From Peptococcaceae bacterium (GTDB taxonomy: Bacteria; Bacillota; Dehalobacteriia; UBA4068; UBA4997): 64,000 bases of DNA. Positions 12,118-56,442 of the stretch are shown here, piece after piece. The notes beneath the pieces are model-generated. The model had not been told where the DNA came from, ran no database searches, and saw nothing but the letters and a program-made list of their open reading frames with translations. Position numbers and translations under genes: made by a program. The number at the start of each line of letters is the position of its first letter. The first letter of the stretch is position 1. Location: contig JAAWKH010000003.1 of the NCBI GenBank assembly GCA_022797295.1, forward strand, positions 1-64,000, read 5' to 3'.

Positions 12118-12285
12118 TTATTTTTTATTAACCGCCTCTATTCCTTTTCGTATAAGTTCCAACAAAGTAAAACCAGATTTTTTTGCTGCTGCTTGTATCT
12201 CTGCTTTTTCTGCTGGTGTAACGCGAATATAAAGACGCTCACTTTTAGGGTTGTCGCTATGCGGTCTGCCCTGTGTTGGGGACAT
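12118..12285 (-). CDS. Small ribbon-helix-helix (Arc/CopG-like) DNA-binding protein
   Basis: A 55-residue basic protein: SERLYIRVTPAEKAEIQ is the beta strand and first helix of a ribbon-helix-helix fold, and SGFTLLELIRKGIEAV is the second helix. AAAGGAGGTG stands six bases before the ATG at 12285. Such proteins are antitoxins, copy-number or mobilisation regulators. No partner toxin gene of ordinary size is adjacent, but a 15 bp-arm palindrome covering a divergent promoter lies 70 bases upstream and could be its target. The bases between 12032 and 12117 hold a hairpin with a plus-strand T run. Confidence 0.75.
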   Translation of the reverse strand: MSPTQGRPHSDNPKSERLYIRVTPAEKAEIQAAAKKSGFTLLELIRKGIEAVNKK

Positions 12286-12344: not shown

Positions 12345-12355
12345 TAGTTTTTTTC

Positions 12356-12394
12356 ATAACATTTCAGATTGACAAAAGCAATCTGAAATGTTAT
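12356..12394. repeat. Perfect palindrome over a promoter
   Basis: ATAACATTTCAGATT (12356-12370) and AATCTGAAATGTTAT (12380-12394) are perfect inverted repeats with a nine-base centre. They span the plus-strand -35 through the -10 and lie beside the ribbon-helix-helix promoter, so they look like an operator as much as an RNA hairpin. Confidence 0.9.
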
Positions 12395-12397
12395 AAT
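12369..12397 (+). promoter_or_regulatory. Consensus promoter inside the palindrome
   Basis: TTGACA at 12369-12374 and TATAAT at 12392-12397 with a 17 bp spacer. It would start a plus-strand RNA near 12404 with no ordinary ORF, running against the small-ORF transcript. Confidence 0.85.
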
Positions 12398-12425
12398 AAT
12401 AAAAAAGGCACCGCAAGTAAGCGGT
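12398..12425 (-). terminator. Terminator of the minus-strand small-ORF transcript
   Basis: On the minus strand ACCGC, a six-base loop, GCGGT, then GCC and six T. It ends a transcript that begins near 12734. Confidence 0.6.
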
Positions 12426-12490
12426 TAGCTTTCGTTAGTGATTAAAACATTACTGCTTCAACCGTCACTGGGCCAAGTGGCGGTTGTTTC
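12404..12490 (+). ncRNA. Candidate antisense RNA to the small-ORF mRNA
   Basis: The plus-strand promoter at 12369-12397 would produce an RNA antisense to the 3' end of the minus-strand small-ORF mRNA. A ten-base-pair hairpin at 12460-12485 followed by GTTTCT is a possible but weak terminator. The RNA starts with AGGCACCGCA (12406-12415), the same ten bases found near the 5' end of the opposing transcript. Confidence 0.5.
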
Positions 12491-12557
12491 TATGTCTAAA
12501 CTTAATTTCAATCGAAATTTTAAAAATTCCAATATGAAACGTCAGCTTAATTGGCAC
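12465..12557 (-). CDS. 30-residue basic peptide, possible type I toxin or small regulator
   Basis: GAAAGGAGGTGAGG precedes a GTG start at 12557 that opens a 30-codon frame, MPIKLTFHIGIFKISIEIKF and a basic tail ending HLAQ. The alternating hydrophobic pattern suggests beta strands rather than a membrane helix. The ribosome site is one of the best in the window, which is the main reason for calling it. It lies on a roughly 330-base transcript between its own promoter and terminator and is opposed by an antisense promoter. I do not recognise a family. Confidence 0.5.
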   Translation of the reverse strand: MPIKLTFHIGIFKISIEIKFRHRNNRHLAQ

Positions 12558-12647
12558 AGGCCTCACCTCCTTTCGAGGGATATTGACTAACCGTTAAGTG
12601 AGCAGTTAGCGATTGCCAAGTCCTGCGAAGCTGGACGCAGGCAGAGC

Positions 12648-12725
12648 TTAGTGCGAACAAATACCGCAGGTGCAAAAAGGATTGTACGAAAACAAAACTT
12701 TGCCCCTGCGGTGCCTACCGTTCAT
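12648..12725 (-). CDS. Possible 25-residue leader peptide
   Basis: An ATG at 12725, about ten bases from the predicted transcript start, opens a 25-codon frame with four Arg/His-rich residues first and three cysteines near the end (CTCGIC). It has only a poor ribosome site. Its coding bases form a strong hairpin (CCGCAGG...CCTGCGG, 12661-12712), so the region may act as RNA rather than as a gene. Confidence 0.25.
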   Translation of the reverse strand: MNGRHRRGKVLFSYNPFCTCGICSH

Positions 12726-12740
12726 TACGATGCCTTGTTA

Positions 12741-12769
12741 ATTATACAAATTATTTGTCGTATTGTCAA
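12741..12769 (-). promoter_or_regulatory. Promoter of the small-ORF transcript
   Basis: Minus-strand TTGACA (12764-12769) and TATAAT (12741-12746) with a 17 bp spacer, a perfect match. It faces the promoter at 12369-12397. Confidence 0.88.
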
Positions 12770-41096: not shown

Positions 41097-41126
41097 TTGA
41101 CAAAATTCATTGCAGAGTGCTATAAT
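41097..41126 (+). promoter_or_regulatory. Promoter of the antitoxin RNA
   Basis: TTGACA at 41097-41102 and TATAAT at 41121-41126 with an 18 bp spacer, 24 bases after the gyrA stop. Confidence 0.88.
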
Positions 41127-41132
41127 AATAGC

Positions 41133-41206
41133 AGAATGAAAATAGCAGATTCATTTTATCACAAAAAAAGTAAAACGAAAAACCCCCGGTGCAAGCGGGG
41201 GTTTTT
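41133..41206 (+). ncRNA. Candidate antitoxin small RNA (par/Fst-like)
   Basis: About 75 bases from the consensus promoter to the shared terminator, without an ORF. It contains TAGCAGATTCATTTTATCAC (41143-41162), the exact complement of the ribosome-site-to-codon-4 region of the toxin mRNA made from the other strand (41326-41345). It could therefore block toxin translation, as RNA II does in the par/Fst locus. Confidence 0.75.
41143..41162 (+). repeat. Direct repeat, copy in the small RNA
   Basis: Twenty-base perfect direct repeat of 41326-41345. Because the two transcripts run in opposite directions, the repeat gives RNA-RNA complementarity. Confidence 0.95.
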
Positions 41207-41207
41207 C
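41178..41207. terminator. Shared bidirectional terminator of the toxin and antitoxin RNAs
   Basis: AACCCCC (41181-41187) and GGGGGTT (41197-41203) form a stem flanked by A and T runs on both sides, able to stop both converging transcripts. Confidence 0.88.
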
Positions 41208-41247
41208 TATGTTGTTTAATCTAGGCACAACCTGAAGCCTAGGCTGA

Positions 41248-41337
41248 TTATCGCCGCCTGTCGTCCAGCCATTTGCAAATATAATAGGAGATTACGTTTG
41301 CCAAGACGGTAGTGGCTATAGTAATTAGCAGATTCAT
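41248..41337 (-). CDS. 29-residue hydrophobic peptide, candidate type I toxin
   Basis: AGGAGGTGATAAA precedes an ATG at 41337 that opens a 29-codon frame. The first 20 residues (MNLLITIATTVLANVISYYI) form one membrane helix and the rest is CKWLDDRRR, a charged tail. Size and shape match Fst/Ldr-type and holin-like membrane toxins. A CTAGGC/GCCTAG hairpin follows the stop and the shared terminator ends the mRNA. It is a real gene most probably, given its promoter, ribosome site and complementary small RNA. Confidence 0.82.
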   Translation of the reverse strand: MNLLITIATTVLANVISYYICKWLDDRRR

Positions 41338-41345
41338 TTTATCAC
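41326..41345 (-). repeat. Direct repeat, copy over the toxin start
   Basis: Twenty-base perfect repeat of 41143-41162. It includes the start codon at 41335-41337 and touches the ribosome-binding site, so pairing would hide both. Confidence 0.95.
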
Positions 41346-41370
41346 CTCCTATCTGCCGAGGCGATAATTA

Positions 41371-41399
41371 ATTATATTATAGCATAGAATGACTGTAAA
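41371..41399 (-). promoter_or_regulatory. Promoter of the candidate toxin
   Basis: Minus-strand TTTACA (41394-41399) and TATAAT (41371-41376) with a 17 bp spacer. Confidence 0.82.
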
Positions 41400-56062: not shown

Positions 56063-56091
56063 TTGACATAACTTAGCAAAAGGCTTATAAT
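56063..56091 (+). promoter_or_regulatory. Promoter of the candidate toxin mRNA
   Basis: TTGACA at 56063-56068 and TATAAT at 56086-56091 with a 17 bp spacer; transcript start expected near 56098. Confidence 0.9.
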
Positions 56092-56097
56092 AAAACA

Positions 56098-56127
56098 AGC
56101 AGGGAAATGACGGTTTGACGGTTGCCC
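56098..56127 (+). repeat. Leader block shared by both converging transcripts (inverted copy at 56383-56410)
   Basis: AGCAGGGAAA (56098-56107) and GACGGTTGCCC (56117-56127) recur on the minus strand at 56410-56401 and 56393-56383, just after the opposing promoter, so both RNAs start with nearly the same 30 bases. Confidence 0.9.
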
Positions 56128-56160
56128 CAATGATATTCTGCGCGAGCGGAAAGGAGGGGG

Positions 56161-56202
56161 ATGTGCAGAAGCTCCGCAGAAAATCTTTCTGAAAGGGGTT
56201 GA
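56161..56202 (+). CDS. 13-residue leader peptide coupled to the toxin ORF
   Basis: AAAGGAGGGGG, the strongest ribosome site in the locus, lies directly before an ATG opening MCRSSAENLSERG. The stop TGA (56200-56202) overlaps the toxin ATG (56202-56204) as TGATG, so the leader can couple translation of the toxin, as mok does for hok. The spacing between the site and the ATG is very short, which lowers confidence. Confidence 0.5.
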   Translation: MCRSSAENLSERG

Positions 56203-56300
56203 TGCAGATTACTTTGACTACTTTAGGCAGTATTTGTAGTATTCTGGGCCTATGCTTTGCAATATATACTTATGTAAAAGCCGAAAGAAAGAAGAAGTGA
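56202..56300 (+). CDS. 32-residue membrane peptide, candidate type I toxin
   Basis: A 32-codon frame: MQITLTTLGSICSILGLC starts a single membrane helix of about 24 residues, followed by a Lys/Arg tail ending ERKKK. GAAAGGGG lies four to ten bases before the ATG. The shape is that of TxpA/BsrG/holin-like type I toxins. It is bracketed by a consensus promoter and a terminator and opposed by an antisense promoter. Confidence 0.75.
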   Translation: MQITLTTLGSICSILGLCFAIYTYVKAERKKK

Positions 56301-56407
56301 GCCGTCTGCTAGCACCAGATGGCTCACATTGTTAGTTTGAGGGGCTAACCTCAGATTAATAATGTTACAAGTTATCAAATGCGGGCAACCGTCTTACAAG
56401 TTTCCCT
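56290..56407 (-). ncRNA. Candidate antisense RNA over the toxin 3' end
   Basis: From the minus-strand promoter at 56414-56442 to the hairpin at 56297-56327, about 115 bases, with a T-rich tail on this strand (TTCTTCTTTCTTTC). It is complementary to the 3' end of the toxin mRNA, the TxpA/RatA type of overlap. Confidence 0.65.
56297..56327. terminator. Hairpin terminator over the toxin stop codon
   Basis: GTGAGCCGTCTG pairs with CAGATGGCTCAC (one G-T pair) around a seven-base loop. The tail is T-rich only on the minus strand, so it works best for the antisense RNA. Confidence 0.7.
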
Positions 56408-56413
56408 GCTTTT

Positions 56414-56442
56414 ATTATATGCTATTTGTGGCGTTTTGTCAA
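56414..56442 (-). promoter_or_regulatory. Promoter of the antisense RNA
   Basis: Minus-strand TTGACA (56437-56442) and TATAAT (56414-56419) with a 17 bp spacer, a perfect match. Confidence 0.9.

Follow-up and report, generated by a model that had tools for sequence, protein, structure and literature searches.

A probable type I toxin-antitoxin-like module with a predicted beta-hairpin peptide in a Peptococcaceae bacterium

The locus described here lies at positions 12,356 to 12,769 of a 64,000-nucleotide (nt) stretch from a Peptococcaceae bacterium (contig JAAWKH010000003.1, positions 1 to 64,000 of the forward strand; this whole stretch is referred to as the window). Two sigma-70 promoters, each matching the consensus at 12 of 12 positions, converge there on a structured messenger RNA (mRNA) that carries a 30-codon frame for a basic peptide. 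The facing promoters had been noticed in an earlier inspection of the letters alone (the sequence-only reading), and both scored as perfect when evaluated. The parts of the locus, in window coordinates, are as follows.

12741-12769, minus strand: promoter of the peptide mRNA, TTGACA-17-TATAAT, 12/12 match
12725-12735, minus strand: 5' closing arm AGGCATCGTAA, paired in the minimum free energy (MFE) fold with UUGCGGUGCCU at the mRNA 3' end
12564-12579, minus strand: predicted Shine-Dalgarno hairpin CCCTC-GAAA-GGAGG, corresponding to helix 4 of the family structure
12465-12557, minus strand: open reading frame (ORF) MPIKLTFHIGIFKISIEIKFRHRNNRHLAQ, 30 codons with a GTG start, the presumed toxin peptide, judged by homologues, by the ratio of nonsynonymous to synonymous polymorphism (pN/pS) and by AlphaFold2
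12459-12486, both strands: two-way terminator-like hairpin AACCGCCACT...AGTGACGGTT, conserved and covarying, which overlaps the ORF end
12407-12429, minus strand: 3' closing arm GCTAACCGCTTACTTGCGGTGCC, followed by a T run, placed by the predicted fold and the family alignment
12369-12397, plus strand: promoter of the antisense RNA, TTGACA-17-TATAAT, 12/12 match
12398-12735, minus strand: predicted peptide mRNA of about 338 nt, ends inferred; fold MFE -115.2 kcal/mol, z -5.4
12404-12492, plus strand: predicted antisense RNA of about 89 nt, the presumed antitoxin; fold z -3.9

A DNA search of the genome itself and of its relatives found the locus to be one of many copies, 71 of them unique after four chance matches had been removed. 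The antisense promoter matches at least 11 of 12 positions in 93% of copies, compared with 0% of dinucleotide shuffles and 11% on the opposite strand (70 copies), and a sense promoter of at least 10/12 stands together with the antisense promoter in 45 copies. This layout supports the earlier suggestion of an opposing antisense RNA that would overlap the mRNA of a tiny peptide; the convergent promoters predict such a pair, a short-ORF mRNA overlapped by an antisense RNA with its own promoter as in type I toxin-antitoxin (TA) systems, in nearly all copies. The proposed structured minus-strand RNA and the antisense RNA both fold better than their shuffles, and terminator-like stems lie at 12459-12486 and 12410-12425.

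The strong ribosome site AAAGGAGGTG (12573-12564) and the basic frame behind it (12557-12465, minus strand) were located as the sequence-only reading had them. That reading had also made its proposal depend on conservation of the tiny frame or of the RNA structure in related genomes, and the 30-codon frame and the structure are both kept in about 70 copies. The ORF has 24-30 codons in most copies and a peptide consensus of about M(PI)RITFHIGxFTVTIxVKRxxKNRH. It is under purifying selection: third codon positions are the most variable, and pN/pS is 0.33 in the ORF frame as opposed to 1.28 and 2.13 in the shifted frames (16 core codons, 51 unique copies). A purely structural RNA or attenuator in which the ORF is incidental would explain the very strong conserved structure; it is nevertheless highly unlikely, given that the low pN/pS is confined to the ORF frame, that the strong Shine-Dalgarno sequence is conserved at the right spacing and that the ORF payload is exchanged for other small ORFs within the cassette.

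AlphaFold2, run on 40 DNA-derived sequences, predicts the peptide to be a beta-hairpin with strands at residues 2-9 and 12-19, the predicted local distance difference test score (pLDDT) being about 89 in the first two thirds and low in the basic tail; the overall predicted template modelling score (pTM) of 0.31 is usual for so short a peptide. The hydrophobic moment is 0.67 at 170 degrees compared with 0.41 at 100 degrees, and mean hydrophobicity is 0.17 compared with about 0.6 for three cassette-mate peptides. The hydrophobic, alpha-helical transmembrane segment that marks the membrane class of toxins was thus not found by AlphaFold2, hydrophobic moment or hydrophobicity.

In the sense direction the copies share one order, namely the sigma-70 promoter, the 5' arm, a CTCC-GNRA-GGAG hairpin covering the Shine-Dalgarno sequence, the ORF, the end hairpin AACCGCCACT..AGTGACGGTT, about 40 nt, the 3' arm, a T-rich tract and, on the opposite strand, the antisense promoter. 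In all 45 full copies, 146-173 nt separate the start codon from the antisense -10 box. When 25 short-leader mRNAs were aligned, compensatory changes were seen in 22 of the 34 predicted pairs and 92.1% of paired cells could pair. Letter shuffles gave 81.3% and slid partners 30-47%. The observed figures are somewhat favoured since the structure was derived from the same 25-copy alignment. The covarying hairpin over the Shine-Dalgarno sequence predicts a primary transcript that would not be translatable, another trait of type I systems. The stem that closes the 5' end on the 3' end likewise covaries in the 25 copies, with compensatory changes in most pairs. An alignment-free check gave a mean of -44.0 kcal/mol for duplexes between a copy's 5' leader and its own 3' region and -30.8 kcal/mol with the 3' regions of other copies, and 5'-3' closure appears in all 45 folds of full copies (median 25 pairs versus 9 in shuffles; median z -7.3).

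Since the arms are inverted repeats, the antisense RNA would start with nearly the same sequence as the mRNA. The sequence-only reading had seen AGGCACCGCA near both RNA 5' ends; it is present at 12406-12415 with an inverted occurrence at 12707-12716, although the echo is in part the edge of a dispersed repeat, and in the predicted fold it is AGGCATCGTAA, rather than AGGCACCGCA, that serves as the 5' arm pairing with the mRNA 3' end. Inverted ends, many copies per genome, copies at contig ends and tandem copies are also what a mobile element resembling a miniature inverted-repeat transposable element would leave, with promoters arising by chance in the terminal repeats and the ORF as passenger. 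Such an element is very improbable here: the arms vary between copies yet match within each through compensatory changes, whereas transposon ends are alike between copies, and on this ground the explanation was rejected; moreover, the ORF is under selection and stand-alone units stop at the terminator, not at the inverted repeat.

These stand-alone units came to light with a covariance model built from the antisense half and run over 20 genomes. It returned 96 strong antisense units, 76 with a peptide partner and 20 without. Setting aside two of these 20 that accompany other small ORFs and one unclear case gives about 17 solo units, while peptides without an antisense unit number only 2 of 78. 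Solo units do not continue past the terminator hairpin, a pattern that points to this hairpin as the end of the antisense RNA, and a promoter can still be recognised in most of those read. At two orthologous sites (contig C5 of the window genome, G000, versus C11 of its congener G006, and the window locus versus G006:C21) the two species have matching flanks to the left and right, and all that one of them is missing is the promoter, the leader and most of the ORF, the antisense half being kept. A toxin and its antitoxin would be expected to decay in this direction, the peptide being lost and the RNA retained.

Lower-scoring matches of the antisense model carry hydrophobic peptides instead, for example MSTMEVYTLCLVIIGICNLFIQLLNKKK, MTTLEVLTLLILLVDFAGLLLNFRNKK and MFWLNIAAVVMQAIQLAIQAVEFILEHCKQK. 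These cassettes (L235, L238, L241-L250), together with a locus at 56 kb in the window, have the inverted-arm design, Shine-Dalgarno sequence and terminator layout of the beta-hairpin copies and differ in the payload, which is hydrophobic and ends in KKK or similar. The hydrophobic peptides of the cassettes are single-helix-like, match no Pfam or NCBIfam model and are holin-like by eye; they resemble membrane type I toxins. The use of a single cassette for both kinds of peptide is the strongest indirect reason to suppose that the beta-hairpin peptides would be toxins too. The window genome itself holds two such RNA cassettes, L235 (G000:C44:26041-26165, peptide MTFLEVSALLILLITVADFAIKHCNKK) and L238 (G000:C47:5880-6004, peptide MFWLNIAAVVMQAIQLAIQAVEFILEHCKQK). 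The 56-kb locus (56063-56440, plus strand) is a convergent-promoter, inverted-arm locus with peptide MQITLTTLGSICSILGLCFAIYTYVKAERKKK, whose two RNAs would both begin with AGCAGGGAAA and whose predicted mRNA folds closed from 5' to 3'. The comparison of the 12-kb with the 56-kb locus that had been suggested thus brought out a common design in which both RNAs begin with identical sequence. A further locus at about 41100-41380 (minus strand) has a par/Fst-like layout. Besides the peptide MNLLITIATTVLANVISYYICKWLDDRRR and a terminator, it contains two direct copies of the 20-nt repeat GTGATAAAATGAATCTGCTA, one at the start codon and the other close to where the antisense RNA would begin; its score against the Fst profile is weak (E 0.25).

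The family is widespread among gut bacteria and unannotated. The peptide profile counts 4 ORF copies in the window genome, about 20 in G006 and fewer in G001 and G007, and named matches include the Bacillota metagenome-assembled genomes (MAGs) S4_Bin7 and S11_Bin2, an uncultured Peptococcaceae MAG and a sheep-rumen Oscillospiraceae MAG, from whose family 300 genomes were drawn, 69 of them positive with up to 11 copies each. Most copies come from MAGs; the layout is also present in Vescimonas fastidiosa MM35, an isolate from the human gut with four matching places on an 861-kb replicon, and is therefore not an assembly artefact. The four places are in NZ_AP023416.1, with a full copy at 292090-292164. 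The copy examined there sits unannotated between jag and tatD. In the same species a full copy is followed immediately by a solo antisense unit (L173 4190-4310). The phage collections searched gave no match and the family was not found in viral contigs, while the only matching record in the plasmid collection is the 861-kb replicon; in these collections the family does not look phage- or plasmid-borne. One alignment (A5) included a mistyped row (MRITFHMSDRIRFRL...) and fed only one genome search and the seed of the copy list; later analyses rest on alignment A7, taken from DNA.

Among known families, no Rfam 15 covariance model reached its gathering score at the locus or gave a plausible weak match, and Pfam, NCBIfam, PADLOC and PDB yielded no family match. 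Forty members had zero matches in NCBIfam, the Fst toxin profile included, and no relevant match in Pfam; PHROGs gave only phrog_37754, which has no function, weakly (E 0.0022) and for 2 of the 40. The open papers that were searched contain no description of the module, a scope that takes in neither T1TAdb nor supplements and subscription papers.

In the Bacillus systems txpA/RatA and bsrG/SR4, a cis antisense RNA overlaps the 3' part of a short toxin mRNA. The same arrangement is described for yonT/SR6 (PMC5848175). The predicted overlap here resembles all three, although their toxins are hydrophobic transmembrane helices. These mRNA/antisense pairs are not known to carry identical 5' arms. 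The par/Fst system of pAD1 shares convergent promoters, a short antisense RNA, a two-way terminator, a hairpin over the toxin Shine-Dalgarno sequence and intramolecular pairing that covers the mRNA 5' end (PMC7472228). Its direct repeats DRa and DRb, however, give RNA-RNA complementarity at the start site (PMC7472228), whereas the repeats here are inverted rather than direct, so that the RNAs would have a common 5' sequence and the antisense RNA would mimic the mRNA 5' arm; the peptide, moreover, has no Fst match and is predicted to be beta rather than a transmembrane helix. As in hok/sok and aapA/IsoA, the full-length mRNA is predicted to be closed by a long-distance 5'-3' interaction (PMC6733600), but here the Shine-Dalgarno sequence has an adjacent anti-Shine-Dalgarno sequence of its own, the closing stem lies outside the Shine-Dalgarno hairpin, the antisense RNA would pair with the 3' part of the mRNA and there is no sequence relation.

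With the promoters, the conserved ORF, the covarying structure, the distribution, the solo antisense units and the cassette shared with membrane-type peptides all read from the DNA, we regard the locus as probably a type I TA-like module with a new kind of peptide. In the scheme that we infer for transcription, RNA ends, strand exchange and peptide toxicity, the minus transcript would encode a 30-residue cationic peptide, a predicted amphipathic beta-hairpin with a basic tail. The mRNA would be born closed, a local GNRA-loop hairpin concealing the Shine-Dalgarno sequence and a long stem linking the 3' end to the 5' leader. A short antisense RNA would be transcribed from the opposing promoter, extending as far as the hairpin that overlaps the end of the ORF and complementary to the 3' region of the mRNA. 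Its 5' part, a copy of the mRNA 5' arm, could displace that arm from the 3' arm, after which the mRNA would be cleaved by RNase III or lost. Without the antisense RNA, opening or processing of the mRNA would allow the peptide to be made. The fuller proposal of a new type I toxin class, in which cationic beta-hairpins that are soluble or insert into membranes are carried by an RNA cassette with exchangeable payload, inhibition comes from an antisense copy of the mRNA 5' arm and orphan antisense genes persist as trans-acting antitoxins, is plausible as a whole without being probable.

Cationic amphipathic beta-hairpins look like antimicrobial peptides. An antisense-regulated small peptide other than a toxin (a membrane-acting regulator, a signal or an antimicrobial), for which the antisense RNA is an ordinary tight off-switch, would fit this resemblance and the multi-copy, chromosomal and mostly intergenic placement, as between jag and tatD in Vescimonas. 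It is an unlikely explanation all the same, as the excess of antisense-only over peptide-only units and the cassette shared with membrane-type peptides fit toxin control better and no transporter gene is conspicuous beside the copies whose surroundings were read. Several points weigh against the TA-like module nonetheless. The peptide falls short of membrane-type toxins in hydrophobicity and is predicted to be beta, whereas those membrane type I toxins whose structures are known are alpha-helical (PMC8309996). At the two decayed sites the antisense halves change no slower than their flanks, so that a retained function of solo units is putative. Nine non-cognate 3' regions pair better with the leader of the window copy, which is enlarged by a repeat, than its own does.

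If the proposal holds, it would describe an unannotated TA family with up to about 20 copies per genome in a considerable fraction of the Oscillospiraceae-group genomes from gut and rumen as well as in this Peptococcaceae-related genus, and its beta-hairpin class would broaden the type I toxins, whose reviewed membrane-associated members are all alpha-helical (PMC8309996). The mimic-arm layout offers a directly testable RNA mechanism, and the covariance model and peptide profile can be used to annotate the family.

The window copy has some features of its own.

12597-12714 (boundaries approximate), minus strand: dispersed intergenic repeat inserted in the leader, absent from short-leader copies
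12348-12402, both strands: copy-specific palindrome spanning the antisense promoter, arms 12348-12371 and 12379-12402
12118-12285, minus strand: NikA/CopG-like ribbon-helix-helix gene adjoining the antisense promoter (Pfam PF21983, E 8e-8, above cut-off)

A 25-codon frame, MNGRHRRGKVLFSYNPFCTCGICSH, beginning at 12725, had also been proposed in the leader; it falls mostly within the inserted repeat, its ATG is missing from the L082 and L099 leaders, and it is not conserved. The 60-nt core of the repeat (12598-12658) has about 30 further occurrences in the genome, most of them not accompanied by the ORF. This dispersed hairpin (GTTCWCACTAAGCTCTG...GCTAAGTGTTCAC) is often preceded by CAACTAGCCGC/GCGGCTAGTTG and often lies at contig ends, where it may break the assembly. 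The palindrome around the antisense promoter is present as the sequence-only reading had it, its arms matching at 88% over 24 nt with 16 bp perfect; it is no family-wide trait, other copies having arms of only 3-11 bp, and a role as operator was ruled out by this lack of conservation. Homologues of the ribbon-helix-helix gene adjoin several, though not most, copies, among them related copies in G000 and G006.
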